Shown here in pieces: positions 3,401-55,958 of a stretch of 55,958 nt of DNA. The notes beneath the pieces were generated by a model. The model was not told the DNA's origin. It did no database searches and saw only the letters and a list, made by a program, of their open reading frames with translations. Each line of letters begins with the position of its first letter. Positions within the stretch are counted from its first letter, which is position 1. The translations under genes and the position numbers were made by a program. The stretch is from Actinomycetota bacterium (lineage in GTDB: Bacteria > Actinomycetota > Geothermincolia > Geothermincolales > RBG-13-55-18): positions 1 through 55,958 of the forward strand of contig JABLXL010000043.1 of assembly GCA_013178005.1 (NCBI GenBank), given 5' to 3'.

Positions 3401-3516
3401 CGGTCGCCGAAGCGCTGCTGGAGCTCTTCGATGCTTTCCGTTATGTCCTTTCCGTTCGACATGCCCGGCAAGACCCCGGCCAGAACCGACGCAAACCTGC
3501 TGCTTATGCCGCTCAT
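406..3516 (-). CDS. FAD-binding / 4Fe-4S / CCG-domain oxidoreductase with Met-rich C-terminal tail
   Basis: This 1036-residue protein resembles D-lactate/glycolate-type dehydrogenases fused to a GlpC-like iron-sulfur subunit. The N-terminal half carries a FAD_binding_4 (VAO-type) domain with PRAAATSGYGGAIP near residue 98. Around residues 535-625 are two ferredoxin-like clusters, CAQCGYCKEGC and CTTCKKCDLAC, followed by two CCG domains (CCGVPF, CPGCW, CCGSVL, CPCCEF) typical of heterodisulfide-reductase/GlpC proteins. The likely role is oxidation of a 2-hydroxy acid or similar substrate with electron transfer through Fe-S clusters; the substrate is unknown. The last ~112 residues hold about 23 methionines in M-P-x-M patterns and are not part of the known fold. 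The start is supported by GGAGGTGGGCG before ATG. Confidence 0.88.
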   Translation of the reverse strand: MSGISSRFASVLAGVLPGMSNGKDITESIEELQQRFGDRFSADPVERYIYSRDMGEFPSLVGKVVGGLAQAVVQVENEEELVWLCEFSSRRGLPLTPRAAATSGYGGAIPVNGGVVVDLIRMNHILAIDEKEPSVLVEPGVVWWDLEKELRKHGLALRSYPSSAPSSTVGGWVAEGGSGIGAYRYGGIADSVRELRVVTPAGARPVSDAEELSLYVGSEGILGFISAVRIAVREAVADEPHLFSFAKPEAAQRFIDSLKGSALPLFHLQLISPRLAALKNEVSDSPYLPEGSYLVLAVLEGGGETAHEGPSDGEVQGGTATNSFHREELERLAASAGGGRVEGEAAAREWEERLYPMRIKKAGPSLVPAEAKVPTSKAGALLDEVAKRLPELALEVVAGRDGMSVFLGFIPCDSRASDFTANFTASLEFLRLAEKYGGAPYGVGLYFVDKAKESMGMTKRRRLSQAKGEVDPACLLNPGKLVDTCAASPRLKALRAMMAAAELTLPLAAPARKLAPHARVMRRRLPERVEEAAFTCAQCGYCKEGCTLYAGRGWESASPRGKMQYLRGYARGEVPLTEEMSDTFLLCTTCKKCDLACQTDLPIESIWEEMRGELVAKGRFHTFPPFEMMCASYDLENNIWAGFAQDRDAWLPEDVKPAQSGPVLYWAGCTASYVEQDIARGAVRILKEGGIDFAYLGKDETCCGVPFLMSGKWDVFEKAVRKNIRNIQERGVKTIYASCPGCWVTLGHHYKEWAEKLGLEWDVEVRHISELAAELVRDGRLQFKKEVPMKATWHDPCHIARHGGIYEEPREVLAAIPGLELKEMEHNREDGLCCGSVLTLIGETRPTSGRIAHQRLEEARATGAEAIVTTCPCCEFQLRVWNAAEGNSLKVLDFASVVAEALGEELEDPDPKVQDSWAVFDVMIQLMTPNGMADFMWEFLDSISPLLGRIMRLGKKLPEPLKKGMFALTDRLIPPLMPRMLPVMMPWMLPRMMPLMEAKMPTMTDSMRELMPDILPQVMDRIMPHLMPRIMRCMLG

Positions 3517-3637
3517 CGCCCACCTCCGGAAACGGGTGCGAAACCGTATAACTTTTACGCAACCTCACGCGGCATAAATCTTATACCCCTATGGGTATCA
3601 TCGACATAATCTAAATCATACGAGGCTAAATCATATA

Positions 3638-3945
3638 GGGGTCGTATCTTGAATTTTTCCTCGCTCCGCTGGGGAGGTATAGGCAGGGAGGTAGAAACAG
3701 GTCAAAGGCTGAGGGATCATGCCTTGCGCTCGAGGACAGGGACGAGGTTCTGGGTAATTGAAGCGAGGAGAACGCGGTGATTCCATAAGAGGCTTGGGGT
3801 CGTATCTTGAATTTTTCCTCGCTCCGCTAACCTCATCATGGTCATCACACAACACTCCATCATGGGGTCCATCATGGGGTCGTATCTTGAATTATTCCTC
3901 GCATTGCTAGACCTCATCAGGGTAATCACATAATGGGGTCGCATA
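3638..3945. repeat. truncated copies of the 279-bp inverted-repeat element
   Basis: Positions 3638-3790 match the left ~150 bp of the full-length elements at 4969, 5631 and 6407. Isolated left ends follow at 3795-3828 and 3875-3908, each with GGGGTCGTATCTTGAATT. The segments after these two ends (CCTCATCATGGTCATCACA and CCTCATCAGGGTAATCACA) are also related, giving a tandem period of about 80 bp. A further fragment, TGGGGTCG, lies at 3934. No gene is visible in 3517-4048 apart from these remnants. Confidence 0.8.
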
Positions 3946-4048
3946 ATAGGATCGGTCGCGGACCGGCTGTAAATATCCATTCGAGCTATTCCGATACAGA
4001 AATAACGCACGTTGATATCCTTGGCGGAATGAGTTTCCAGAGAGAGGG

Positions 4049-4942
4049 ATGAGGATGAAGAAAAGTGTTGCGGTCTCGGTACTAGCACTGGCAGCGTGCC
4101 TCTGCCTGGTCGCGCTGACGCTTGCCGCTTGCGGCGGGAGCGGCACGGCCAAACTCGCAAACCCTCTGGATTTCTTCGAGCAGGCGCGCAAGAACATGCA
4201 GGGAGCGGACTCCTTCCGCATGAGCGGCAAGATGGCCGCGGAGATAACCGGCCTGGACACGCAGGGCGCCTCGTCTCTCTCGGTTGACTACGACATGGTC
4301 TACGAGCAGAAGGGCGGGGAGCCGCTGGCCAGGATGGAGATAAGCACCCGTGGCCCTGCCTCGAACGACATGGAGGCATACATCGACGGAGACAGGATGT
4401 ACCTGCAGATGCCCGATGGCACGTGGATATACCAGGAGGTGGGCTTGACCTCCGAGCTGGCCAACATGAGCCAGGGCATGGGTCCTCAGTTTTTTAAGGA
4501 GACCCTGGCTATGGCAGAGAACGCCAAGGTCGTCGAGGAGGACGCCGAGACTATCACCTACGATCTCACCCTGGATTTCGACAAGATGATGCAATCACAG
4601 GGGGAGGAGGAGTTGCGGCAGAGGATCGAGGAGTTGGGTATTCCCAACATCGACGTGGACACGTTCGTGAATTACTTGCGCGAATTGATCTCCGAAATGG
4701 AATACCGCATGACTGTGGATAAGAAGAGCGGCCTCGTTACCAGGTTACAAATGCACATGGACATGGGCCTCTCCTCCTTCGCCGAGATGATGCCAGGCGA
4801 GTCGATCCCCGAGGGGGCAAGGATGGTGGAGGACGCGGAATTCTACTTCAGCGACTACGGCGAGAGTTTCGACATCGAGCTACCGCCGGAGACAAAGAAC
4901 GCCATCCCCGCTAAGATGTACGGGAAGAACGCGGAGACCTGA
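4049..4942 (+). CDS. secreted lipoprotein (LppX/LprG- or DUF6612-like)
   Basis: This 297-residue protein has a lipoprotein signal peptide: basic MRMKK, a hydrophobic core and the lipobox LTLAAC with Cys near residue 27. The mature part (LDFFEQARKNMQGADSFRMSGKM..., later MYLQMPDGTWIYQEV and a DKKSGLVTRLQMHMDM segment) looks like the LolA/LppX-type half-barrel family that measures or carries lipid-like ligands. The family assignment is from pattern only. The start at 4049 follows AGAGAGGG; ATG at 4055 is an alternative. It is convergent with the CsoR-family gene, and an inverted-repeat element fills the gap. Confidence 0.7.
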   Translation: MRMKKSVAVSVLALAACLCLVALTLAACGGSGTAKLANPLDFFEQARKNMQGADSFRMSGKMAAEITGLDTQGASSLSVDYDMVYEQKGGEPLARMEISTRGPASNDMEAYIDGDRMYLQMPDGTWIYQEVGLTSELANMSQGMGPQFFKETLAMAENAKVVEEDAETITYDLTLDFDKMMQSQGEEELRQRIEELGIPNIDVDTFVNYLRELISEMEYRMTVDKKSGLVTRLQMHMDMGLSSFAEMMPGESIPEGARMVEDAEFYFSDYGESFDIELPPETKNAIPAKMYGKNAET

Positions 4943-4968
4943 AGCGTAGCTGGTTTGGGGTCGTGGTT

Positions 4969-5246
4969 TGGGGTCGTATCTTGAATTTTTCCTCGCTCCG
5001 CTAGGGAGGTATAAGCAGGAAGGTGGAAACAGGCCAAAGGCTGAGGGGTCATGCTTTGCGCTCGTGAACAGGCACGGGGTCTAGATAACTAAAACGAGAT
5101 GAACGCGGTGATTCTGTAACGGGGCTGCGATTTCGTTATTCACTGGCATTAACCTTCCCCGACATCAACCAGAAGTTGCGTGCAGCAACAAGCGCAAGGT
5201 ATGAAAGCGAGAAGCAAAGCGAGGAAAAATTCAAGATACGACCCCA
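4969..5246. mobile_element. MITE-like element, copy A (278 bp)
   Basis: The left end TGGGGTCGTATCTTGAATT and right end AATTCAAGATACGACCCCA are inverted repeats of about 34 bp: 29 bp perfect, then 2 mismatches. The interior (~210 bp) is shared with copies B and C and has no convincing coding sequence. It sits between the stops of the convergent lipoprotein gene (27 bp away) and the CsoR-family gene (6 bp away), so a folded transcript could act as a bidirectional terminator. No transposase for it lies in the window. Confidence 0.85.
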
Positions 5247-5251
5247 GGGCT

Positions 5252-5545
5252 TTAATCGGGGGGGACTGGGCCGATACTGGAGCTGAAGCGCCGGAAGATG
5301 TCGATAGCGTCGCTCACGGCATCCTCGATGGACTCAGGTGGGTTCTCCTTAAGACACTCCCTCATGCGGTGGGTGATGATCTGGATGCCCACGCGATCCA
5401 TGGCCGAGCGCGCCGCAGCCACCTGGGTAAGGACCTCCTCGCAGTCCTTGCCCTCCTCTACCATGCGGATCACGCCACGAACCTGTCCCTCCACACGGCG
5501 CAACCTCCGCAGGATAGCCTCCTTGGTATCATCGCTCTTCGGCAT
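5252..5545 (-). CDS. CsoR/FrmR-family (DUF156) transcriptional repressor, CstR-like
   Basis: This 97-residue all-helical repressor belongs to the DUF156 family. EEGKDCEEVLTQVAAARSA carries Cys35, and ITHRMREC carries Cys64. The family's X-Y-Z sensor positions are spaced 25 and 29 residues. Here X is Cys35 and Z is Cys64, but the Y position (60) is Arg, where copper-sensing CsoR has His. Two Cys without the Cu-ligand His resemble the persulfide sensor CstR, which also has an EEGKDC-type segment; that role is inferred. The start has GAGGAGGTAAC before ATG, and a TATAAT lies upstream on this strand at 5572-5577. No sulfur or copper target gene is adjacent. Confidence 0.85.
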   Translation of the reverse strand: MPKSDDTKEAILRRLRRVEGQVRGVIRMVEEGKDCEEVLTQVAAARSAMDRVGIQIITHRMRECLKENPPESIEDAVSDAIDIFRRFSSSIGPVPPD

Positions 5546-5630
5546 GTTACCTCCTCGCTCCGATCAGTTCAATTATATTACTTTTGCCCGTTAGCAGCGT
5601 GGATGGGGACTATATTGGGATGGAGAGGTT

Positions 5631-5909
5631 TGGGGTCGTATCTTGAATTTTTCCTCGCTCCGCTGGGGAAGTATAGGCAGGAAGGTGGAAACAGGCCAAC
5701 GGCTGAGGGATCATGCCTTGCGCTTGAGAACAGGCACGAGGTTATGGAAAACTAAAGCGAGGAGAACGCGGTGATTCCGTAACGTGGCCGCGCTTTCATT
5801 ATTCGCTGGCATCAAGCTTCCCCGACATCAACCGGACCTTGCGTGCAGCCACAATTGCGAGGCGAGACCGTGATAAGCAAAGCGAGGAAAAATTCAAGAT
5901 ACGACCCCA
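5631..5909. mobile_element. MITE-like element, copy B (279 bp)
   Basis: Full-length copy with the same 34-bp terminal inverted repeats and closely similar interior as copies A and C. It lies upstream of both the CsoR-family gene and the EF-Tu-like gene, so it could affect the 5' regions of both. The bases between 5910 and 6130 contain only a degenerate leader duplication. Confidence 0.85.
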
Positions 5910-6018
5910 TCGAGGGGGGCGGTTTATCCTGCGGTGGAACTGGGTATTGATATGGCAACGGCGGGCGAGAATAGGGCGAAAGGATGGCGAGGCTGCCGGG
6001 GCGACGCAAGCTTTGTCT

Positions 6019-6130
6019 CGACACCAGACCTAATGATCCGGAGGTGGCCAAAGTTAGTTATGGAGTTCGGCTGGGCGACACGTATATCCATATGGCGATG
6101 CCGGACATTATGATCCCGAGGTGGTGAAAG
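6019..6130 (+). repeat. degenerate 35-bp duplication of a ribosome-binding leader
   Basis: Segments 6019-6053 and 6096-6130 align over about 35 bp with a period of 77, sharing ATGATCC, GAGGTGG and AAAG. The second copy supplies the Shine-Dalgarno (GAGGTGG) of the gene starting at 6131. In the first copy, the ATG has become TTAG. Confidence 0.55.
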
Positions 6131-6385
6131 ATGGAAAAGCAGGTAGGCAGGGTAACCCACTATTTCGGCAAGATCGGAGTGGCCGCGATCGAGCTCGAGG
6201 ACGAGCTCAAGGTCGGAGACATAATCCACGTGCGGGGCCATACCTCCGACTGGAAACAGCGGGTGGACTCCATGCAGGTGGAACACGACACGGTCGAGAA
6301 GGCCGGCCCCGGTGCGGTAGTGGGCATCAAGGTGGAGGAACACGCCCGCGAGCACGACGTGGTATATAAGGTCATCGAAGACTAG
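6131..6385 (+). CDS. translation elongation factor-like small beta-barrel protein
   Basis: This 84-residue protein resembles domain 2 of EF-Tu-type translation factors without a GTPase domain. It has GRVTHYFGKIGVAAIEL, the DELKVGDIIHVRG segment and a final GIKVEE...VVYKVIED strand. Stand-alone copies are known in bacteria, often near peptidase U32/YegQ-type genes, but no such partner is visible here and the role is unknown. GAGGTGGTGAAAG precedes the ATG. The gene is bracketed by inverted-repeat elements B and C, and copy C begins 22 bp after the stop codon. Confidence 0.8.
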   Translation: MEKQVGRVTHYFGKIGVAAIELEDELKVGDIIHVRGHTSDWKQRVDSMQVEHDTVEKAGPGAVVGIKVEEHAREHDVVYKVIED

Positions 6386-6406
6386 CTTCCGCGAAGGTCG
6401 GAGGTT

Positions 6407-6685
6407 TGGGGTCGTGTCTTGAATTTTTCCTCGCTCTGCTGGGTGGGTATATGCAGGAAAGCAGAAACAGGCCAAAGGCTGAGGGATCATGCCTTGCGCT
6501 CGAGGACAGGGACGAGGTTCTGGATAACTGAAGCGAGGAGAACGGGGTAATCCTGTAACGGTGCCGCGCTTTCATTATCCGCTGGCATCAAGCTTCCCCG
6601 ACATCAACCGGACCTTGCGTGCAGCCACAATTGCGAGGCGAGACCGTGATAAGCAAAGCGAGGAAAAATTCAAGATACGACCCCA
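6407..6685. mobile_element. MITE-like element, copy C (279 bp)
   Basis: Full-length copy with one change in the left end (GTCGTGTC for GTCGTATC). Its right end is followed by a small tandem duplication of ACGACCCCATGTCT. It begins 22 bp after the upstream stop codon, as copy A does. Confidence 0.85.
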
Positions 6686-6756
6686 TGTCTACGACCCCAT
6701 GTCTAAGTGGCGTGGATGGGGGCGGTATGCGGATGGGGCGTGGCAAGGGCGTTAAA

Positions 6757-6837
6757 AGCAAAGCGAGGAAAAATTCAAGATACGACCCCATATCGCGCCC
6801 GGAAGCAAAGCGAGGAATAATTCAAGATACGACCCCA
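6757..6837. repeat. two solo right ends of the MITE-like element
   Basis: The right-terminal 34 bp (GCAAAGCGAGGAA...GATACGACCCCA) occurs at 6757-6790 and again at 6803-6837 without an element body. The second copy overlaps the 3' end of the neighbouring minus-strand gene and supplies its stop codon. Confidence 0.8.
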
Positions 6838-7595
6838 TCTTGGGAGGGTTGGTAGCGGAAGTGCTCGTACCAGGCCATGGGTTGCTCGGGGCCCCTGGCC
6901 AACAGGGTCCAGACGGCTCCCGCCAGGCTTTTCAGCGCCTGTCGCGCCAGCTTCTCCCTCAAGCCCGGCGCCTCGATGCGCGGGGGGAATTCGCCCGGCG
7001 TGGCCTGCGGCGATGGCTTGCCGGCCTCGCGGTGCGAGAGCGGCAGCTCGATCACCGCCCGGCAGCAGGAGTCGCCGCGTGAAAGCAGCTCCGTTATCTC
7101 CGGTATCTTCAGGTCCGGATTGAGCACCGAAAAGGTCCCCGCTTCCATGGCCACCATGAGCTTGGTGCACACCTCCGGGCAGCGCTCCAGGTCCGTTGCC
7201 GCGGGGCAGTACCTCTCCTCCTTCACCGCCCGGCCCCTGGTTTCCTCGGTCCAGATGCCCTTCACGCCCACCATGCCGTCCTCGAAATCGAGGATGCGTC
7301 CCAGGCTTCTGGCGTCATAGGGATCGATGTCCAGCGCCTCGCGCATTATGGGGGCGCGGTCCTCCCCAATGCGATAGAAAACGTACTGCAGGGCGCGAAC
7401 CCCCCGCTCCCCGAAACGCGCATAGAGCTCGGGCAGCAGCCAGGCGAGCCCCCGCATGGTCACGCGCAAGGGGACCTCGCGGTGCCAGGAGGGGTCGACG
7501 AGGTCCTTGAGCTCGGGACGCAGCGACCAAGCCGCCGCGCCGTAGGCAGCAACGCCAACCAACAGGATCCTTTTGGCTCTCTTGATCATTCCCAT
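6822..7595 (-). CDS. L-2-amino-thiazoline-4-carboxylate hydrolase-like protein
   Basis: This 257-residue protein resembles the ATC hydrolase-like family (Pfam PF14196). The diagnostic region is CPEVCTKLMVAMEAG...LNPDLKIPEITELLSRGDSCCRAVIEL. The N-terminus has a hydrophobic segment (RILLVGVAAYGAAAW) that could anchor it. The start at 7595 (MGMIKRAK) is chosen for AAGGGAGG nine bases upstream; a longer reading frame to 7658 lacks a ribosome-binding site. The last residues (DGVVS) and the TGA stop are encoded by a solo end of the MITE-like element, so the original C-terminus was probably altered. The real substrate is unknown. Confidence 0.7.
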   Translation of the reverse strand: MGMIKRAKRILLVGVAAYGAAAWSLRPELKDLVDPSWHREVPLRVTMRGLAWLLPELYARFGERGVRALQYVFYRIGEDRAPIMREALDIDPYDARSLGRILDFEDGMVGVKGIWTEETRGRAVKEERYCPAATDLERCPEVCTKLMVAMEAGTFSVLNPDLKIPEITELLSRGDSCCRAVIELPLSHREAGKPSPQATPGEFPPRIEAPGLREKLARQALKSLAGAVWTLLARGPEQPMAWYEHFRYQPSQDGVVS

Positions 7596-7930
7596 CGCAA
7601 AGAACCTCCCTTGGTGTCCAGGCCCGTCAAAGCCCCACCGGCTCGGCTCAAGCAACATCGTTTGGGCATCACCATCTCACCAAGGCCCCTAAACCCCTCG
7701 TCGATTCGGCGCTTCCGACATCGTTTCGACAGCGTGTCGTAAATAATAATATCCTCAAGGCCCTACGGCGTAAAGCATTAACCGGAAACCAGGGCTCAAA
7801 GGCGTCCCCGACCATCCTTCCATCGATCATCGATCTCTTCTATTGCCTTTGCTTAGGAGACCAGACGTAGCACATATCGCCCAGATTGAACGTTTGGAGA
7901 TTGCTCCGTTCCTCATGCCGAGTTTGCTTG

Positions 7931-8100
7931 TTCTGCCAGTATGACAGGGTGCTCCTCCGGCCATTTTCAACCTGGAAAGCGACTGCCGAAACCATACGGC
8001 ACCTGTTCCTCACGTCGAATACGTTTGTTCTGACAGTATGACAGGGTGCTCCTCCGGCCATTTTCAACCTGGAAAGCGACTGCCGAAACCATACGGCACC
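7931..8100. repeat. 73-bp unit duplicated with a 97-bp period
   Basis: Units 7931-8003 and 8028-8100 are almost identical (TATGACAGGGTGCTCC ... CCATACGGCACC). Each ends in a small inverted repeat, TGCCG...CGGCA. A related TGCCGTATGGTTCGGCA occurs at about 32949. No gene is supported in 7596-8526. Confidence 0.8.
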
Positions 8101-8140
8101 CCAGTAGCCACGCTTTTTCCGTTCGGCAGCGTATAGGATT

Positions 8141-8432
8141 GTTCCTCCAGCTACTCGCCTTTTGCCCCTTCGAGGGTGTCGAGAATGCCCTTGCTTTCCT
8201 AAATATGTTTTGGTTTATTCCTGGATACGAACGCCATTTTCACCCCAGAGGCCTCACGGCAAGGTGAGGACACAAACATCGTATTGCTTCTTCCTCCAGC
8301 CACTCGCCTTTTTGCCCCTTCGAGGGTGTCGAGAATGCCCTTCCTCCCCCTCGAACATGTTTTGGTTTATTCCTGGAGACGCATGTCGTTTCCACCCCAG
8401 AGGCCTCACGGCAAGGTGAGGACACAAACATC
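8141..8432. repeat. ~140-bp unit duplicated with a ~150-bp period
   Basis: Units 8141-8281 and 8291-8432 share CTCGCC...CCCCTTCGAGGGTGTCG, a central ATGTTTTGGTTTATTCCTGG and a terminal perfect hairpin CCTCAC-ggcaag-GTGAGG. They lie in the same geneless stretch as the 97-bp repeats. Open frames across them are byproducts of the repetition. Confidence 0.8.
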
Positions 8433-8526
8433 GCTTTGGTTTTTCCTCGATACCCAAGCCTTTTCCACCACCGGCAGCCGCACAAGAGCACGATCGTCAG
8501 CTATGGGAGAGGAGTGCGCCGAGCGC

Positions 8527-9699
8527 TCAGGTCAGGGGGCGGTTGACGTCTATCTCCACCACCTCGCCGCTTCCCGCCCGCACGGCGAAGACGATCCCCT
8601 TGGTATTATATTCCATGATGGTCATTTCCTCTCCCTGGTGGGTGGCGGTGGTCTGCCGTTCGGGGCTTCCGAACTCCTTGATCACGTCGTTGGAAGAAGA
8701 ACCTATGCCCACGCCCTTGGGAGTCTTTCCCTGGTAGGGGCTGCGCACGCTGATGGATACCACGGTGTCGAAATCGCCCAGGGCCTCGTTCTTGTCCTTG
8801 TCCTCGAGGTAGAGGCTGAGCTTCCAGGTGCCGTATCCGCCGGTGTACGTGGCATAGACATACCCCTCGGTGGTGAAACCAGAACTGTCGGGCGGACCGT
8901 AGAGGTCCTTTACCGCCTTGAAATCGTCGCCCACGTTTATCCCCGCCGCCGTCTGACCCGCCACGATGGGGGCCGAGGCATAAGACCCGAAAAGCCCGCC
9001 CGCCTTGCCGCCGTCCTGCCCCCCGCTCTCCACCGGGCGCAGGCCGCCGTAGGCGGTAACCAGTACCGTTATTACCCCTTCCTCGGGGGAGACGAGGAAC
9101 TCCACCCCCCTTTGCAGGTAAGAATAGAGCTCGAGGACCCCTCCCTGCGTGTCCCTCGAGGACGTCACGCTCTCGGCCTTCCCGAACTCCGCCTCGATAT
9201 CCGAGGGGGCGCTGCCGATGCCCACCCCCCCGGCGGTCTTGCCGAAATAAGGGGCGGACACTTCCACCCCGCCCACCTCGTCCCCCGCGTCCAGGTAACC
9301 GTTGCCGTTGTCGTACAGGGTCACCACCAGTCGCCAGGAAGCCGGGTCGTCGATATGTCCCCCTTCCCTGGTGCGCTGGTAATAAGCGTAGAGGTAGCCC
9401 CCCTCCTTGCGCTTGTCCGCGGGATCGCCGTGCGCCTCCTGCACGGCGGAGAACTGGTCCCCGATGTTTATCTCCGCCAGCGAGTATCCGGGCACGATGG
9501 GGTCGCGTTCCCAGGAGGCCATACCGGCGCCGCCGTCGCCGCACGCGGCCACGGACACGGCCACGATGATGGCCAGCAAGGTCGCCGAGGCCGCGCGCAT
9601 CCCCCTGGCGATTACGGACCCCGTAACCGATGCCGTTATCATCCCCTCCGCATTACTTCGCATCCCACTATCTTCGCTTTGCTTACGCCTTCTTCCCAT
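8527..9699 (-). CDS. lipoprotein with two tandem ~160-residue domains
   Basis: This protein of up to 390 residues has a lipobox (VSVAAC, then GDGG) after a hydrophobic helix. The mature part is an internal duplication: GYSLAEINIGDQFSAVQEAHG...VGIGSAPSDIEAEFG is paralleled by GQTAAGINVGDDFKAVKDLYG...VGIGSSSNDVIKEFG. Each half also has a GGYLYAYY or EGYVYATY strand and an SAPYFGKT or RSPYQGKT segment. The function is not recognised; it is presumably extracellular and membrane-anchored. The exact start is uncertain: internal ATGs at residues 20 and 34 have purine-rich tracts too close to the codon. The neighbouring segment 9700-9900 holds no gene. Confidence 0.7.
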   Translation of the reverse strand: MGRRRKQSEDSGMRSNAEGMITASVTGSVIARGMRAASATLLAIIVAVSVAACGDGGAGMASWERDPIVPGYSLAEINIGDQFSAVQEAHGDPADKRKEGGYLYAYYQRTREGGHIDDPASWRLVVTLYDNGNGYLDAGDEVGGVEVSAPYFGKTAGGVGIGSAPSDIEAEFGKAESVTSSRDTQGGVLELYSYLQRGVEFLVSPEEGVITVLVTAYGGLRPVESGGQDGGKAGGLFGSYASAPIVAGQTAAGINVGDDFKAVKDLYGPPDSSGFTTEGYVYATYTGGYGTWKLSLYLEDKDKNEALGDFDTVVSISVRSPYQGKTPKGVGIGSSSNDVIKEFGSPERQTTATHQGEEMTIMEYNTKGIVFAVRAGSGEVVEIDVNRPLT

Positions 9700-9900
9700 C
9701 TTGCCTTGCCCGCCATGCCCTCGTTTTGCCCCGGCCTTTTATTATCCTACGCCTTTACTTCCTTCCCATCCCGTCTCATCCGCGCCGCCTCAGCATCTAT
9801 CTCACCGTTTTCTCCATGCTTACGCCGCCCTTAAGATACCGTGTTCATACCGCTTTCTCGCCCGTTCCTTTACTTTCGTCCCATCATCCCGACTTGAGGA

Positions 9901-10452
9901 CTATGCCTCCGCCGTTCCACCGGCGCCGCGGCGCTTGTAGGTCACCGGAAGGTCCCCGGCCTCCGCCAGGGCCTCCGCGATAAGGAAAGCTGCCGTGCGG
10001 TTGTCAGCCGGTGCACCCGTCATCCCGGAGCGAAAGACCTTCAACTTCCGCCCCCCGGAGAGTAAAAGGTAAACGCGCACGAAGTAGGAAAGGTCGTGGC
10101 GCGATCCCCGCTCCCCCTCGGATGCGGGAAGCCTGGGGGACTCCACGACCTCCACGCCCTCCAGCGCGTCACGCCCCAGCGCTCGCCGGCTGGGGAGGAA
10201 GAAATGGTACTTGAGCAGGCTTATGCCGTCATCGCCTATGACCACGAAGCGCGGGCTGGAGAAGATGGCCAGCATGCTGTAGAAAAGCAGGACGATGGCG
10301 CCTATCCCGAAATAGACGCGGAAGATTCCTGCCGTCGCCAGCACCGCCAGGGTCAACGCGGCGTAAAAGATCACGGCGTGCACGCCTTCCCAGGCTCCCC
10401 CGCGGATCTCGAACTCGACCTTACCGCTACCGTCGCCGACCGTTTCCGTCAT
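9901..10452 (-). CDS. small membrane protein of unknown function
   Basis: This 183-residue protein has two closely spaced hydrophobic segments (AVIFYAALTLAVLATAGIF and GIGAIVLLFYSMLAIF) near residues 25-65. A soluble beta-rich part follows (VVIGDDGISLLKYHFFLP, RALGRDALEGVEVV) that resembles bacterial PH-like or YcxB-type domains. GGGGGGAGGAG directly before the ATG at 10452 decides the start. I cannot name a function. Confidence 0.6.
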   Translation of the reverse strand: MTETVGDGSGKVEFEIRGGAWEGVHAVIFYAALTLAVLATAGIFRVYFGIGAIVLLFYSMLAIFSSPRFVVIGDDGISLLKYHFFLPSRRALGRDALEGVEVVESPRLPASEGERGSRHDLSYFVRVYLLLSGGRKLKVFRSGMTGAPADNRTAAFLIAEALAEAGDLPVTYKRRGAGGTAEA

Positions 10453-10741
10453 CTCCTCCCCCCGCGCCAGGCGTGAGCATTGAAATAGGCCAATCCTGCC
10501 AGGGATATTATACATGGCGGCATCCATAGCCGGTGCCGGCCCGGTGTGCTCTCGTGAAGTCGGAAGGGGAATTTTGAGAAGAAGGAGAGAGGGGAGTACG
10601 GGAAAGGGGAGAGGGGAAGTACGAAAATATATTGACCGTGACCATCCTGACCGCGTTCACCTGATCTTGCAATCGTGAGCATGTGCCTGGCAACTCAGGG
10701 GGAACGGCTCGGTGGATCTGGAGAGCACGTGCTCCCAGGCA

Positions 10742-11048
10742 AACGGAAGGCGCGGGCGAAGCGGGAGGAAAAGCTTGGCTTTCCCAGAAGCCCCTCTCTG
10801 AAAGGTTAACAGTTTAGCCGGCCTGGAGAGCCGGTTTCCAAAGGGATAAAGGCGAGGCCATCAAGCAATGCTTGCGGCTTCAAGGTGAACGGAAGGCGCG
10901 GGCGAAGCGGGAGGAAAAGCTTGGCTTTCCCGGAAGCCACTCTCCACAAGGTTAACAGTTTAGCCGGCCTGGAGAGCCGGTTTCCAAAGGGATTAAGGCG
11001 AGGCCATCAAACAATGCTTGCGGCTTCAAGGTGAACGGAAGGCGCGGG
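10742..11048. repeat. 146-bp tandem repeat ending inside a gene
   Basis: Two nearly identical 146-bp units begin at 10742 and 10888. A third starts at 11034 and continues only for about 15 bp, where it becomes the 3' end of the flavoprotein gene. Each unit contains GGAAAagcttggcTTTCC and CCGGCctggagaGCCGG hairpins. The array therefore appears to have grown from the 3' end of the gene. 10453-10741 contains nothing recognisable. Confidence 0.85.
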
Positions 11049-12129
11049 CGAGGGCGCGGCGGTCGCGCCGGGCGGTCTTCCCGGTAGCGAGGGAGGAGGT
11101 GTCGAAATCGCCCACCATGCCGCCCAGGCCCTTGCGTTCGGCGGCCTCCCTCTCCAGGATCTCCTTCATGCGGTAGCGGTAGCGCACGTGGGGGGTGATG
11201 CGTTCCCCGGCGCTCTCCACCAGCGATTCCGCCGCCACCCTACCGCTCTCCAGCGCCAGGAAGATGCCGAACCCCCATGGGTCTAGCAGGCCCGCCGCCT
11301 CTCCCGCCAGCAGTGCGCATCCCGCACCCAGGTTGTATTGCCCCGCCGCCGCCATGCGGTTGGAGGCCGCCGTCCTGCGCACCATCTCGCCGCGCATGCG
11401 CAGGCCCGCTCGCTCCTCCAGGAAAGAGAGGAGCCTGTCCAGCTTCTCCTTCCATTCCTTTCCAGGAGAGATGTTGACCGCCAGCCCCACCAGGTCGCCC
11501 CTCCTGAAAAAACGCGCTAGGCCAGCGTCCTTGCGTAGCAAGGCCAGGCCCATCCACTGGGAGTCCCAGTCCATATCGCCCTCGCCGGCGACTAGCATGC
11601 CCCGCTCCAGTACGGGAGCGGCGTACAGGCGGTGGAACTCGGGCCGTAACAGGCGCAGCGCGAGGGAACCGGCGCCGTCCGCCGCCACCAGGTAGGTCGA
11701 TTCGAACTCCTCCCTGCCCTTTTCACCTCTCGCTTTCAATTGCACGCGGAAACGCAGGGCAGTGAACTCCTCCACCTCCATGCCGTCCCTCACCTCGGCG
11801 CAGCACTCGGCGGCCAGGAAGGCATCGAAGCGCCCTCGTTCCACCGCAAGGCCGGGCGAGGAGAAGGGTAGTTCGTAGTCGCCCCCGCCCTCGCAGAGGA
11901 GGCGGGCGCCCAGCATCTCGGGTTGTGGTGCGAAGCACGAGGAGGGCAAGGGGCCGAAGGACTCCTCCACCATCTTCACCGCCCGGGGAGGAAGGAAACC
12001 CCCGCAGGCCTTGTCCCTGGGGATTCTCTCCTTCTCGAGCAGCAGCACCTTGAACCCCGCCCGCGAGAGGGTGCGCGCGGCCATGCAGCCCGCGGGTCCC
12101 GCCCCGATGACTATCGCGTCGTAGTGCAA
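11026..12129 (-). CDS. geranylgeranyl reductase family flavoprotein
   Basis: This 367-residue FAD-dependent oxidoreductase has a Rossmann motif DAIVIGAGPAGCMAART at the N-terminus, followed by the family signature DKACGGFLPPRA. A second FAD contact lies near ALLAGEAAGLLDPWGFGIF. Members reduce isoprenoid chains or act as lycopene-cyclase-like or lipid-modifying enzymes; the substrate here is open. The start codon is TTG at 12129, with AGGAAAACAGGA upstream. The 5' end is partly duplicated just upstream (12181-12242), and the 3' end carries the start of the 146-bp tandem repeat. Confidence 0.82.
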   Translation of the reverse strand: MHYDAIVIGAGPAGCMAARTLSRAGFKVLLLEKERIPRDKACGGFLPPRAVKMVEESFGPLPSSCFAPQPEMLGARLLCEGGGDYELPFSSPGLAVERGRFDAFLAAECCAEVRDGMEVEEFTALRFRVQLKARGEKGREEFESTYLVAADGAGSLALRLLRPEFHRLYAAPVLERGMLVAGEGDMDWDSQWMGLALLRKDAGLARFFRRGDLVGLAVNISPGKEWKEKLDRLLSFLEERAGLRMRGEMVRRTAASNRMAAAGQYNLGAGCALLAGEAAGLLDPWGFGIFLALESGRVAAESLVESAGERITPHVRYRYRMKEILEREAAERKGLGGMVGDFDTSSLATGKTARRDRRALARAFRSP

Positions 12130-12440: not shown

Positions 12441-12692
12441 CATGCCCGGTGGGAACCGGAGCCGGGAAACGGGGCATGACGAGGGGAAACCGGGGCTGGC
12501 GAGGGGGTGCCGCGCCCGGCGGGCGCTGCCTCCCCCTCAAACGCAATGGGACTCCGGCATAGGCAGCATAGCGGCGGCCCAATTACCCGGCGAATTCGAT
12601 CTCCCTTCTCATGCCCGGTGGGAACCGGAGCCGGGAAACGGGGCATGACGAGGGAAAACCGGGGCTGGCGAGGGGGTGTCGCACCCGGCGGA
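12441..12692. repeat. 83-bp direct repeat, period 169
   Basis: Segments 12441-12523 and 12610-12692 match with only a few changes, beginning CATGCCCGGTGGGAACCGG. The unit is itself partly palindromic (CCCGGTGGGAACCGG, CCGGGAAACGGGGCATG). It lies in the 510-bp gap between two minus-strand genes, which holds no other feature. Confidence 0.8.
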
Positions 12693-14115: not shown

Positions 14116-14517
14116 CACGGGAGGTTATCGTTAAACTTCGACGGCGTAAAGTGCCCGTGGGTTCCCCCGAAGCGGGTTCGCCGGAATAGCGGGGGCCTTC
14201 GCGATGGGATAGGCAGGCGGCAATCCATTCCCATCGGGGGAGGTTAGGTTGGACTTCGGCTTAGCAAAAGGCCTGGGGGCTCACGCCCGTGGGTTCCCCC
14301 GAAGCGGGTTCGCCGGAATAGCGGGGGCCTTCGCGATGGGATAGGCAGGCGGCAATCCATTCCCATCGGGGGAGGTTGGGTTGGACTTCGGCTTAGCAAA
14401 AGGCCTGGGGGCTCACGCCTGTGGGTTCCCCCGAAGCGTGGTTCGCCGGGATAGCGGGGGCCTTCGGGCGAGGTTGTGGTTGGGTTTCGGCTTAGCAAAA
14501 GGCCCGGGGGCTCACCT
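14116..14517. repeat. 132-bp tandem repeat array
   Basis: Units begin at 14154, 14286 and 14418, each with GTGGGTTCCCCCGAAGC...TTCGCCGG, then GGACTTCGGCTTAGCAAAAG. The third unit is shortened and ends near 14517, and a degenerate earlier unit precedes the first (from about 14116). No gene is visible between 13825 and 14720. The array lies upstream of the debranching-enzyme gene and could influence its expression. Confidence 0.85.
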
Positions 14518-26523: not shown

Positions 26524-28402
26524 AATCGACATAGGTAGGCCCTCGCGGGCTGTCCCTGTCACACCACCGTGCGTACGGGTCCGTACACGGCGGTTCGGCA
26601 AGGTTAAGCGGAGCAGCGGGCCTCCAAGGTGATGAGTCCGAGTTCGGAGAAGAAGGCATTCGGGAAGGCGAAGCTTAACGCGGGGCTGCGGCTGATGCGC
26701 CAGGGGCCATGGACGCTGCCGGCGGTCTTGGCCGCAAGGCCCCTGCTGATATCCCTGGCCCTGAGTTCCGCGTATCGTCTCTTGCCCCGCTTGAGCTGCT
26801 TCCAGATGAAGCACCGCAGTCTGCGCCTGATCCAGGAGTCGAGGTCGCGGAGGACCGACGGGGTCTGGCAGAAGCCGAAGTAGCCTATCCAGCCCCGCAG
26901 GTAGGTATTAAGGTCGGCCACCACCCGCTCCAGGGGTACCCCCCGGGTCCGGCGGGTGATCTCCTTTATCCGCCGGCGCAGGCGTTTGCGGGCCTTGGGC
27001 GATATGCTCCGCTTGGTCTTCTCCCTCCCGACGATGCGGAAGGAGAGAAAGTCCCGCTCGTGCGCCGGGGCCACCGCGCTCTTATCCCCGTTCACCCGGA
27101 GCTTGAGTCTCTTTGCGAGGAAGTGGGTGATTCCCTCCATGACTCTCCTGCCCGCCCGCTCCGATGCCACGTAGATGTTGCAGTCATCGGCATAGCGGAC
27201 GAAGGCGTGTCCCCTCCTCTCCAGCTCGCGGTCCAGGTCATCCAGGTAGATGTTGGAGAGCAGCGGGGAGAGGGGTCCTCCCTGCGGGGTGCCCATCTCG
27301 GGCGGGGATACGAGCCCTCCCTCCATCACCCCGGCCTTGAGGTAGGCCCGGATGAGTTTCAGGAGCACCTTGTCGTCTATCCTGCGGGCCACCCTGGCCA
27401 TGAGCGCGTCGTGGCAGACGTTGTCGAAGAAGCGCTCGATGTCCAGGTCCACCACCCAGCTCTTCCCCTCTTCCACATAGGACTGGGCCTTGGCTACAGC
27501 CTGGTGGGCCGAGCGGTGAGGCCGGAAGCCGTAGCTCCCCTCCGAGAGGTGGGGGTCGAATACGGGGGTTAGGACTTGCAGGATGGCCTGCTGGATGAGG
27601 CGGTCGGCCACGGTGGGGATGCCTAGGTACCTATGGCCTCCGTCCGGCTTGGGTATGCCTACCCGCCTCACCGGCTGGGGCCGGTAGGTGCCTGTGAGCA
27701 GCTCCTCCCTTATCTCCTGCCAGCTCTGGCTGAGGAAGAGGGGCAGCTCGGCGGTGGTCATCCCATCCACCCCTGGGGCTCCCGCGTTCTCCATGACCTT
27801 CTTCAGTGCCTTCTTCATGTTCTCCGGGCTTACCACCACCTCCATGAGTCCCGTTGCCTTTGCCGGGCGTTCGGGGCTGCGCTCCGCCGCGGGCGGTTCG
27901 TTCCCTTCCAGCGAGGGGTTGCGGGCTTCACCCTCCCCCGTCTCGCCGAAGGCCAGTTGTCCCTGGTCTTTCCGCCGCTTGCCGTCCCGCGAGTCACGCA
28001 TCCTACTTGCCACTCCTTGCCGTTCGGCCCTTCGGTGGACGAAAAGTCCTCCTACTATGGCCTCTGCTGACTCCTGCGCCGCGGTCAGGGTCCCTCACGG
28101 TTCCCTCAGTCCCCTTGGGGGGACACGGCGCAGGCCTCCCGGGGTAAGACCGGCCGCCTTCCCCGCACACCCGCCGGATTTACGCCCGTGGCCCTTGACG
28201 GATATGGACTTCGCGATCTCTTGCTCGCTCGTCCGGCCACGCTCGCCTCGTATCCGGTTCCTGTTCGTCGGGTCGCGTTTTGCTCCTGCGCTTCCTTCAG
28301 ACTCAACCTCGCGATTGAGCCCTTGCGCTTCGCTAGTCCTTCACCTCCGTCAGGTTGGACAGGGGACTTTCACCCCCGAGCTGCCGGCCATGCCCGGCAC
28401 AC
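26524..28402 (-). mobile_element. class-C-type group II intron
   Basis: The minus strand begins with GTGTGCCGGGC at 28402, a consensus GTGYG start. An intron-encoded reverse transcriptase follows. The 3' end is a domain V/VI-like region with GAACCGCC...GTACGG...CCGTACG...GGTGGTG, closing near CCTACCTATGTCGATT. The 5' junction lies immediately after a terminator stem plus TTTT, the hallmark insertion site of bacterial class C introns. The 127 terminal bases are identical to those at 55832-55958. The 3' boundary is inferred from where the two copies diverge. 28014-28402 is the 5' ribozyme part. Confidence 0.85.
26604..28013 (-). CDS. ltrA: group II intron reverse transcriptase/maturase
   Basis: This 469-residue intron-encoded protein has RT fingers and palm with [51 protein letters not shown] and an intact YADD catalytic box ([14 protein letters not shown]). 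A thumb and GIIM maturase domain follow ([16 protein letters not shown]). No HNH endonuclease domain follows, as in class C introns. All catalytic motifs look intact, so the element may be active. It promotes splicing and retromobility of its own intron. Confidence 0.93.
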
Positions 28403-48801: not shown

Positions 48802-50652
48802 CTATTCCACGCATCCCTCCGCGAAATACCAGGTAGTGGAGGGCTCGCTCGCTCCCATGGCGTTGTTTCCGTCGGCCATGCCACGGTAGTTGAAATACTG
48901 CGCCAGCTCGACCACCACCGGCGACGAGGACCTCACCTCCGTGCTCACCTCGGCGTCGCCCAGGTTCTCCACCTCGTCCACGTGTATGGTGTAGCGCGCA
49001 TGAGGAGGGATATTCACCCGGCGCTCCACCTTCAGGCCGTCGGAGCGCATGAAGACCACCTCGGTGCTCGCAGCTTCGGCGCCCGGGTTCATCAGAAGGA
49101 CGTACTCGTCGAATTCCCCTCCCGTGTATCCCTCCGCCAGGTACCACTGCTGGTTGGGTCCGGGCGCTCCGATGGTCACGTGGCCGCCCTTCCTTCCCCG
49201 GTAGTCGAAGTACATGGCGCGCTCCGCCACGATGGGCAGGTCGGAGGTCACCGAGGTCGAGACGTCCGTGGACTCCAGGCCGGGGATCTCGTCCACGTGC
49301 ACGGAGTACCGCCGGCGGCCGGGCACGCTCACCCGCCTCTCCTCCACGCTCCCGTCGGGCTTCATGAAGCTCAGGGAAACCGTGGCCGCGCTGTCGTTGG
49401 GGTTCATCAACAGGACCCAGGTGTCGAAGGAATCGCCGGTATATCCCTCGGCGAAGAACCAGGTCGGCGAGGGGGCGCCTGCGCCGATAGAGCCGTGGCC
49501 CCCGTCCTTGCCCCCGTAATTGAAGTACATGGCGCGCTCGGCGACCACCGGCAGGTTCGAGGTCACCTGGGTGGAGACGTCCGCTGACTCCAGGCCCGGG
49601 ATCTCGTCCACGTGCACGGAGTGCCTGCGCCTCGGCAGGATATCAACCTGGCGGGTGATAACCGCCCCATCGGGCCGCATAAAGCTCAGGGTCACCGACG
49701 CCGTGGCGTCGTTGGGATTCTGTAAAAGGATCCAGGTATCGAAGGAATCGCCGGTATATCCCTCGGCGAAGAACCAGGTCAGTGAGGGGGCGCCTGCCCC
49801 GATGGAATCGTGGCCGCCCCGCCTGCCCTGGTAGCTGAAATACATGGCGCGCTCCGCGAGCACTGGCATATCGCTCTCCACCTGGGCGGAGAAGGAACCT
49901 CGGCCCACCGTCTCGCGCACCGGTACCGTGAAGCGGCTCTCGGGCCCCACCGTGTAGGTGAAGCTGTGGATACCGCCGTCCTCTCCCTGGAAGTCCACTT
50001 TGACCCGCGCGGGCTCCCGGTTGGGGTTCATGAGCAGCAGGTAGGAATCAAAGCTGTCTTCCGAGGGCGCGGGGGAGGACGCGGGCGCGGGGGATGAGCC
50101 GCCCGATGCCGGCGGGGTGTTGCCCAGGTCGGCACTTCCGGGGATGGGGGAGAAACACATGAATTCCTGCGATATGTAGAGGGTGTTCCCGTCCGCCACT
50201 ACCCCTATCCCGATGCAGTTGAACTCAGGGCGCAGGATGTTCTCCCGGTGTCCGGGGCTGTTCATCAAGGCCTCAAAGGCCACGTCCACGCTGGGCGCCT
50301 TGGCGATGTTCTCGCCCGCCAGGGTCCAGCCCGTGATCCCCCTTGCCGCGATGCGCTGCTGCAGGTTGCCGGATACGGGAGAGACGTGGCCGAAGAAATC
50401 GTACTGGATCATCTCCGAGGAGTAGGCGCGCGCGAAGTCGGTGAGCTGCTGTTCGGCGTAAAGGGACGGGAGACCCGCCGCGTTGCGCGCCTGGTTTACC
50501 AGCTCCAGCATGCGGGCCTCCCCGGCCGACGTAGTGACCGTCGCGGCGGCCCCTGCGGCCGGAAAGACCATCGGCATCGATACGGTCAGGGCGAGAAAGA
50601 CGATCGCGAGTAAAGGTGTTGCGCCCTTCTGCCACCGAGTGAGCCCCTTCAT
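48802..50652 (-). CDS. secreted CAP-domain protein with four beta-repeat modules
   Basis: This 616-residue exported protein has a signal peptide (WQKGATPLLAIVFLALTVSM) and a CAP/SCP (YkwD-like) domain at about residues 40-170 with SSEMIQYDFFGHVSPVSG, GENIAKAPSV and NSPGHRENILRPEF. A Pro/Ser/Ala linker is followed by four ~105-residue repeats, each ending in a variant of TWFFAEGYTGDSFDTW with a preceding AERAMYF-YxG-GGH block. The repeats probably form an extracellular adhesive or structural rod. ATG at 50652 has AGGGAGATGCTGAC upstream. A GEMM-type riboswitch and terminator precede the gene, which suggests second-messenger control. Confidence 0.85.
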   Translation of the reverse strand: MKGLTRWQKGATPLLAIVFLALTVSMPMVFPAAGAAATVTTSAGEARMLELVNQARNAAGLPSLYAEQQLTDFARAYSSEMIQYDFFGHVSPVSGNLQQRIAARGITGWTLAGENIAKAPSVDVAFEALMNSPGHRENILRPEFNCIGIGVVADGNTLYISQEFMCFSPIPGSADLGNTPPASGGSSPAPASSPAPSEDSFDSYLLLMNPNREPARVKVDFQGEDGGIHSFTYTVGPESRFTVPVRETVGRGSFSAQVESDMPVLAERAMYFSYQGRRGGHDSIGAGAPSLTWFFAEGYTGDSFDTWILLQNPNDATASVTLSFMRPDGAVITRQVDILPRRRHSVHVDEIPGLESADVSTQVTSNLPVVAERAMYFNYGGKDGGHGSIGAGAPSPTWFFAEGYTGDSFDTWVLLMNPNDSAATVSLSFMKPDGSVEERRVSVPGRRRYSVHVDEIPGLESTDVSTSVTSDLPIVAERAMYFDYRGRKGGHVTIGAPGPNQQWYLAEGYTGGEFDEYVLLMNPGAEAASTEVVFMRSDGLKVERRVNIPPHARYTIHVDEVENLGDAEVSTEVRSSSPVVVELAQYFNYRGMADGNNAMGASEPSTTWYFAEGCVE

Positions 50653-53968: not shown

Positions 53969-55840
53969 TCACCCCTCCCCCTCCCGGTTTCCGTCCCTGT
54001 CCGGGCACGCCCCGCAACGCGAGCAGGCGGCCAGGCGGCAGTCGGGCGTCTCCTCTCCCCGCAGCGCCCGTTCATACTCCGCCCACAGGAAATCCTTTTC
54101 CACGCCGGCATGGATGTGGTCCCAGGGCAAGACCTCGCTCCGTTCCCTGCCCCTTTCCGCGTACCATGCCGGGTCCAGCCCCGCCGCCCCCAGCGCGCGT
54201 TCCCAGCGCTCCCAGGAGAAGAACTCGCTCCAGCCGTCCAGGCACCCAGCGCGCGCGGCATCCAGCACCACCGGGAGCAGCCTCCGATCGCCCCTGGCGA
54301 GCACCCCCTCCAGGTAGCTCATCTCGCGCGAGTGCCAGCGCAAAGTAACGCCGCGCATGCGCAAGCCCTCCTTGAGTATGAAATGGCGCCTCGCCACCTC
54401 GGGCACGGACATCTGCCCCACCCACTGCAGGGGAGTGTGGGGCTTGGGAACGAAGGTGGACACGCTGATGGTCACCTGCAGCCCCTTGGCGGGAACGCCA
54501 TCGTTTCCCTCGCGCATGATGCGCCGCACCAGGGCGCAGATTGCCTCCACGTCCTCCTCTTCCTCGCCGGGAAAGCCGATCATGAAATAAAGCTTGAGTT
54601 TCCTCCAGCCTTCCCGGTAAGCGCTGGAAACTGCTTCCAGGAGATCCTCGTCCGATACCCCCTTGTTCACCGCCCTGCGCAGGCGCGCGGAGGCCGCCTC
54701 GGGCGCCAGGGTGAGGCCCGTCCTCTTGACCCTCCGCAGCCTGGAGGCCAGCTCCACGCTGAAGGTATCGGTGCGCAGAGAGGGAAGGGACACCGCCACG
54801 CTCCTCGCTTCCATCTCCCGAGCCAGGTCGTCGACCAGCGATGAGATCCGGCTGTAATCGGCGCTGTTCAGGGAAGCCAGGGTGAGCTCGTCGCATCCGG
54901 TGTTGTCCACCAGCTCCCGCCCCCAGTCCCTGAGCAGCCCCTCGTCGCGCTCGCGCACCGGGCGGTAGATCATGCCCGCCTGGCAGAACCTGCAGCCTCG
55001 CGTGCAGCCCCGGAATATCTCCAGGCTGCAACGGTCATGCACCGACTCCACCAGCGGGACGGGCGGGCGGCGCGGATAGCGCCAGGCGTCCAGGTCGCGC
55101 ACGACGCGCTTGCGCACCGGCATGGGGGCTCCCCCTTGCGGCTCGATGCTCTCCACCGTCCCGTCGGGGCGATAGTCAACGCGGTAGAGGGAGGGAACGT
55201 AGATGCCAGGCAGGGAAGCGCAGGCGCGGAGAAATCCGGCGCGGTCCCTCCTTCCTCCCGCCTTCCATTCCCCGACGGCGTCCAGGAGCTCGTGGATGGC
55301 CTCCTCCCCTTCCCCGACCACCAGGAGGTCGAAGAGCTCGGCGATCGGCTCCGGGTTGAAAGCCCCCGGGCCTCCTCCCACCACCAACGGACAGCCATCG
55401 TCCCTTTGCGCCGCGTGAAGAGGAATGTGGGCCAACTCGAGTACCCGCGCGACGTTGGCGTAGGTGAGCTCGTGCTGTAGGGTTATCCCCACCAGGTCGA
55501 AATCGCGCAAGGGAGAGCGGCTCTCCAGGCCGAAAAGGGGAACGCCGCGCGCCGCCATGCGTTCCTGCATGTCCACCCAGGGAAGGTAGGCGCGGTCCGC
55601 CATGGCATCCGAGCGCTCGTTTATCTCCTCGTAGAGTATGAACAGCCCCAGGTGCGACATCCCGATCTCGTAGGCATCGGGGTAGACGAGGACGCAGTTG
55701 ACTCCCCCGTCTGCGAGGGGCTTGCGCCGCGCGTTGACCTCGATGCCGAGATACCGCCCCGGCCGGGAGACCTCGCCCAGCTCCTCGCGCAGAAATCCTC
55801 TCAGATCCAATCCCGCCTTTTCCTTCCTCTCAATCGACAT
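53969..55840 (-). CDS. B12-binding-type radical SAM protein (TIGR03960)
   Basis: This 623-residue protein starts with RGFLREELGEVSRPGRYLGI and a cobalamin-type region (VLVYPDAEYEIGMSHLG-like, GGGPGAFNPEPI). The radical SAM cluster motif is CTRGCRFCQAG, and LTLAPEAASARLRRAVNKG follows. The C-terminus has CRLAACSRCGACP. The family is a conserved neighbour of rng and the TIGR03936 protein; its substrate is unknown. The ATG at 55840 lies inside the terminal bases of an adjacent group II intron copy, and the first three codons appear intron-derived. A TTG at 55810 after AAGGAAAAGG may be the original start. Confidence 0.9.
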   Translation of the reverse strand: MSIERKEKAGLDLRGFLREELGEVSRPGRYLGIEVNARRKPLADGGVNCVLVYPDAYEIGMSHLGLFILYEEINERSDAMADRAYLPWVDMQERMAARGVPLFGLESRSPLRDFDLVGITLQHELTYANVARVLELAHIPLHAAQRDDGCPLVVGGGPGAFNPEPIAELFDLLVVGEGEEAIHELLDAVGEWKAGGRRDRAGFLRACASLPGIYVPSLYRVDYRPDGTVESIEPQGGAPMPVRKRVVRDLDAWRYPRRPPVPLVESVHDRCSLEIFRGCTRGCRFCQAGMIYRPVRERDEGLLRDWGRELVDNTGCDELTLASLNSADYSRISSLVDDLAREMEARSVAVSLPSLRTDTFSVELASRLRRVKRTGLTLAPEAASARLRRAVNKGVSDEDLLEAVSSAYREGWRKLKLYFMIGFPGEEEEDVEAICALVRRIMREGNDGVPAKGLQVTISVSTFVPKPHTPLQWVGQMSVPEVARRHFILKEGLRMRGVTLRWHSREMSYLEGVLARGDRRLLPVVLDAARAGCLDGWSEFFSWERWERALGAAGLDPAWYAERGRERSEVLPWDHIHAGVEKDFLWAEYERALRGEETPDCRLAACSRCGACPDRDGNREGEG

Positions 55841-55958
55841 AGGTAGGCCCTCGCGGGCTGTCCCTGTCACACCACCGTGCGTACGGGTCCGTACACGGCG
55901 GTTCGGCAAGGTTAAGCGGAGCAGCGGGCCTCCAAGGTGATGAGTCCGAGTTCGGAGA
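55832..55958 (-). mobile_element. 3' end of a second group II intron copy
   Basis: These 127 bases are identical to 26524-26650 of the complete intron and then leave the window. They include the domain V/VI-like region and the last codons of a maturase (26604-26650 equivalent). The intron is directly upstream of, and reads toward, the radical SAM gene. Confidence 0.9.

Follow-up and report, generated by a model that had tools for sequence, protein, structure and literature searches.

We asked what kind of element separates consecutive small genes between positions 3638 and 6837 of the window, by which we mean the whole 55,958-nt stretch of DNA analysed here (contig C38 of a 3.6-Mb genome in 98 contigs), and how it came to be repeated there. 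The first-pass annotation had described in this region three full-length copies of a 279-bp element, one left half and at least four solo ends. All of them were found where it had placed them, and microduplications accompany some of the ends:

3638..3788, + strand: left-half copy H, the left end with about 117 nt of interior, truncated (sequence comparison)
3795..3828, + strand: solo end U (sequence comparison)
3858..3881, + strand: terminus-anchored microduplication, two times CATCATGGGGTC, preceding the solo end at 3875-3908
3875..3908, + strand: solo end U (sequence comparison)
4952..4977, + strand: microduplication, two times GGTTTGGGGTCGT, at the left end of copy A
4969..5246, no strand assigned: copy A, full-length element with inverted ends
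5631..5909, no strand assigned: copy B, full-length element (comparison with relatives)
6407..6685, no strand assigned: copy C, full-length mosaic element
6671..6698, - strand: microduplication of the GACATGGGGTCGTA type as read on that strand, located at the right end of copy C
6757..6790, - strand: solo end U
6804..6837, - strand: solo end U

The repeat family in the window and in the genome

The full-length copies differ in length by one base and consist of an inverted pair of ends around 211 nt of passenger DNA. As described before, the inverted ends are 34 nt each, and they are 94% complementary in copies A and B. Inspection of the copies revealed no conserved reading frame and a Y1 transposase search of the window returned none, in agreement with the noncoding interior and the absence of a transposase that had been claimed. 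The ends are better conserved than the interior in the four full copies of the genome, most clearly in comparison with the copy on contig C53 (ends 88-97%, interior blocks 56-78%). Copy C is nearest to H at about element positions 80-120 and nearest to B in its right half.

On the scale of the genome, it is the 34-nt end (U, GGGGTCGTATCTTGAATTTTTCCTCGCTTTGCTT) that is informative, rather than the 279-bp element. Searching the genome for the full element yielded one more full copy outside the window (C53, 78%), that is, four in total with three of them in the window, while nearly everything else was solo ends. On the contrary, GGGGTCGTATCTTGAATT with at most two mismatches matched the genome 176 times against 0 for the reversed control, and the repeat is thus not due to chance. 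For further analysis 134 units were taken from stretches around many of these matches, the inner box being also required; near-duplicate clusters are among them, mostly on C70, and the numbers of units are therefore not numbers of independent events. The assembly is in many contigs, and repeats sit at several contig ends. The consensus of the 134 units reads (A/T)T followed by GGGGTCGTATCTTGAATTTTTCCTCGCTTTGCTT, and conservation stops sharply on both sides. U folds at 0 kcal/mol on both strands, showing neither hairpin nor palindrome, and its consensus has no GTAG-type tetranucleotide. The earlier description of a repeated, non-autonomous element holds, and the element is apparently mobile; what would move, instead of the 279-bp element, is the 34-nt end together with its inner flank. 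A second type of repeat (GGGTCAAGATACGACCC / GGGTCAAGACCCGGG) adjoins U units at L082 (C16), around 3460-3691, and at L233 (C72), and may represent a related, degenerate end family.

Comparison with genomes of the same genus (G001, G002) and of the same family (G009) gave some history to the window. Copy B lies between csoR and a gene of 84 aa, in an intergenic region that is otherwise comparable in G001 and G002, which is compatible with a simple insertion between genes. Compared to G001 and G002, about 3.5 kb within 6385-11063 are inverted, a block that holds the homologues of 6883-7596, 8526-9555 and 9925-10420; copy C and two solo ends occupy the region of its left breakpoint, an association at one place that does not show causation. 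The DUF6612 lipoprotein-like gene at 4049-4942 is bracketed by repeat units, with H and two solo ends before it and copy A after it; this gene is absent between its two neighbouring genes in two to three relatives, including G001 and G002.

Other repeats were also noticed in the window. At the contig start (14-198), three repeats of about 37 nt (GTCGCATAAGCCGGCATAAACCT...) lie about 70 nt apart and resemble the last part of a CRISPR array, and similar repeats are found at the end of C53 near a gene resembling Cas4/Cas1. Tandem or near-tandem repeats of 82-146 nt, by eye unrelated to U, occur at 8202-8464, 10731-11022, 12441-12691 and 14153-14416. A 127-nt stretch at 26524-26650 recurs identically at 55832-55958, where the contig stops; it is probably a repeat at which the assembly was interrupted. 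At 49036-50053, repetition with a period of 315 nt probably corresponds to repeated protein domains.

A Y1 HUH transposase gene between near-identical ends

The first-pass annotation had proposed to look for an autonomous element with the same ends. A transposase gene with near-identical ends was found on contig C61. The genome contains two Y1_Tnp genes, this one and one on C45, near which no such ends were found. The C61 gene lies between inward-pointing ends, with U at 2166 and 2207 and inverted U at 3593 and 3711; these ends are 134 and 367 nt from the gene, farther than in most relatives. The protein carries NHYH at residue 59 and YIVLNP at 119. In a profile search, its match to Y1_Tnp exceeded the curated cut-off, its match to the REP_Tyr_transpos model fell under the cut-off of that model, and a C-terminal HTH_23 (residues 246-279) was matched weakly (E 1e-4, 22.3 bits, under the cut-off of 24.6). 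Sequence search of solved structures gave no meaningful match.

The ends at the C61 gene (GGGGYCGTATCTTCACTTTTTCCTCGCTTTGCTT) differ from the bulk consensus mainly by CAC for GAA, reading CTTCACTT at the gene and CTTGAATT in the abundant copies, which makes the C61 protein a candidate for the cognate enzyme of the bulk. The source enzyme was probably the one encoded on C61, or a close relative that was lost or is missing from the assembly. Orthologues of the C61 protein in G002 and G009 (65-67% identity) have ends reading GGGGTCGTATCTTC, and more distant paralogues in the same family have ends reading GGGGTCAGGTCTTG. Exact matches to GGGGTCAGGTCTTG numbered 0-16 in each of 15 other host genomes, a count made with a single exact 14-mer, to which not every host conforms, and not like-for-like with the 176 matches reported above.

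We also looked at the ends of related genes in a set of 84 proteins, composed of 80 relatives drawn from the species collection, two of which were dropped, together with C61 and five proteins of genomes related to this one. GGGGTC-type motifs flank both sides of the gene for 70 of the 84, in many phyla, at a median of 51 nt upstream and 38 nt downstream, although some of the 70 may be due to chance as the motif allows one mismatch. As an independent test, the two flanks of each gene were compared for their best inverted repeat, which had a GGGGTC-type start in most loci and exceeded shuffles. NHYH is present in 83/83 aligned proteins and YxxLNP in nearly all. Protein identity and the similarity of the ends, measured outside the detection motif, are correlated (Mantel r 0.40, p<0.0005, host relatedness not removed). 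As judged from these comparisons, the repeats would be detached end-sequences of a widespread family of transposases that cut single strands, and the ends would have spread as solo units, as tandem clusters and as a few inverted pairs.

One-sided duplication of flanking DNA

Neighbouring units within 400 bp of each other are mostly in the same orientation (69 pairs, against 11 inward and 1 outward), and in many tandem pairs the spacer matches the DNA following the second unit. After masking of the units, 67 units showed inner-flank similarity contiguous with U within clusters and 54 showed it between loci, compared to 4 and 2, respectively, for the flanks on the GGGG side. About 13 families of inner flanks were distinguished, and the inner ends are ragged in some of them; the pairs of one such family stop near 137, 150, 167, 190 and 357 nt. 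Some inner flanks may themselves be older repeats.

The long tandem duplications have short outer edges, as the duplicated segment also takes a short piece outside the GGGG. An edge exactly at the GGGG was considered and ruled out by the short shared outer flanks, which place it slightly farther out. Of the 134 units, 32 are preceded, 8-32 nt upstream, by a truncated head reading GGGGTC or GGGGCC, compared to 34 of 1340 random positions. Among exact duplications, the piece taken from outside the GGGG measures 4-15 nt, whatever the period; the retained head of at least 6 nt is a limit set by the search, while the range of 4-15 nt is not. The same signature was observed, also in other phyla, at 88 loci around related genes, in which 34 anchored duplications were counted at GGGGTC, compared to a mean of 0.72 for its other permutations (the highest, 9, being CGGGGT, which overlaps GGGGTC) and a mean of 0.32 for random hexamers. 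Microhomology at the junctions is mostly 0-2 nt; its mean of about 1 nt barely exceeds the 0.67 nt that chance would give, and slippage between direct repeats is therefore not an obvious source. A preferred dinucleotide at the putative nick was searched for and none was found; the TnpAREP enzymes studied so far cut at CT or CA.

At C3:20588 the duplicated flank ends inside the conserved 3' part of a host gene, which is single copy at the matching place in G001 and G002. The outer flanks differ in several tandem pairs, C3:20588 among them, and the simplest form of the model given below does not fit every case. For the intergenic region at C12:60956, no alignment with relatives was obtained.

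Tandem duplications starting a few bases outside one end, as carried by many units, suggest that the enzyme nicks there and copies the neighbouring DNA. The nick would fall outside the GGGG end, at a distance of about 4-15 nt, and extension of the free 3' end would run across the unit and on into adjacent DNA for a variable length; the 5' end that the enzyme holds covalently would then be rejoined by it to the new 3' end. The outcome would be a tandem duplication whose outer edge is near-fixed and whose inner edge is ragged, and the unit with its flank would spread by transfer of such a strand elsewhere. Related TnpAREP enzymes join, in vitro, a free 3'-OH to their own 5'-phosphotyrosine end (PMC8266576). 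We consider it likely that the 34-nt ends are the TIRs of a TIRYT-type Y1 HUH transposase, spread and duplicated by nicking, extension and resealing.

This reading has to be weighed against others. An ordinary MITE derived from a DDE insertion sequence, namely an internally deleted transposon copied by cut-and-paste, could have the 279-bp size, the 34-bp inverted ends and the lack of coding capacity. However, by eye no target-site duplication surrounds copies A, B and C, whose flanks differ; most copies are solo ends, which are not a cut-and-paste product, and the gene found between such ends encodes a Y1 HUH enzyme, making a DDE origin highly improbable. The repeats could also be structured intergenic elements retained as terminators or RNA stabilisers, considering where they lie: 96 of the 134 units (72%) are outside ORFs, compared to 119 of 670 random positions (18%; greedy ORF calling, approximate), and the GGGG side is within 60 nt of a stop codon in 25 units and near a start in 6 (crude ORF calling). 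Copies A and C start exactly 27 and 22 bp after stop codons ending at 4942 and 6385, as noted when insertion at, or use as, terminators was first put forward. The location after stop codons is real and general, but a use as intrinsic terminators is not supported, as terminator-like sites are at shuffle level (3 vs 2.8) and U is unfolded. An Rfam search gave no match, and the interior folded better than shuffles in one of the four full copies, copy B alone, with no consistent fold. Proximity to stop codons thus fits a preference or tolerance of insertion and is not evidence of termination; retention for such a structural role appears improbable.

Another explanation accepts the ends as transposase TIRs and attributes the tandem duplications to replication slippage or end joining at a fragile sequence, free of the enzyme. 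Short tandem duplications are common in general, and the low junction microhomology is also compatible with end joining. On the other hand, the scars are confined to one end of the unit and their outer edges measure 4-15 nt regardless of period, they are found in many phyla at GGGGTC ends and not at permuted hexamers, and U lacks a fold of the kind that would obviously stall replication. We regard an enzyme-free source of the duplications as rather unlikely.

Relation to known systems and significance

The ends around the C61 gene and around related genes place the U family with the TIRYT/TIRtron systems, its amplification being unusual among them. These systems were named in 2013 by Di Nocera and colleagues (PMC3733652) and probably correspond to subclass 2.1 of Quentin and colleagues 2018 (PMC6006769). 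Common features are the Y1 HUH enzyme, a gene between inverted repeats starting with GGGG, and repeats also scattered as singles, dimers and groups; the C-terminal HTH of these systems is matched weakly here. The outer box found here, GGGGTCGT, agrees with 6 of the 8 positions of the published TIR consensus GGGGWSAS, which is common to many, not all, of the published TIRs (PMC3733652); the ends of most relatives (GGGGTCAG) fit this consensus. Differences concern the copy number, with 176 copies here against the 0-16 exact matches of the 15 other host genomes, counts that are not like-for-like, and the end-anchored duplication of flanking host DNA, which the available sections of PMC3733652 and PMC6006769 do not mention. 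For subclass 2.1, PMC6006769 reports no REP-like sequences.

The GTAG-tagged REP/REPIN/RAYT systems resemble the U family in having a related enzyme, high-copy intergenic repeats and some inverted pairs, whereas neighbouring units are here mostly in the same orientation, and U has no palindrome. With neither hairpin nor GTAG tag, U is thus not a classical REP. The catalytic superfamily is also in common with IS200/IS605, but U has no subterminal hairpin and the inner ends of its copies are ragged, not precise. One-ended HUH movers such as IS91/ISCR and Helitrons are similar in having one fixed end and in capturing variable lengths of neighbouring DNA; they are different enzyme classes, and the lengths involved here range from tens to hundreds of bases.

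Both the extent of the amplification and the end-anchored duplications appear to be new with respect to the available part of the open-licence literature, where a search with the end sequences returned unrelated papers alone and nothing relevant was found on tandem duplication with REP or TnpAREP. It is possible, and we put it forward tentatively, that TIRYT-class Y1 transposases of many phyla act from one end, nicking a few bases outside a non-palindromic TIR, with extension of the 3' end through it into adjacent DNA and resealing, giving rise to anchored duplications, to capture of host DNA including gene ends, and to the spread of the TIR with its flank.

How REP-like and TIR repeats spread is presented as an open question in the literature, as far as its available parts go. 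The end-anchored duplications provide, across phyla, a sequence record of a possible cut site and of strand rejoining, and they make the model of cutting, extending and resealing testable in vitro. If this model is true, it would name a source of small tandem duplications beside genes.
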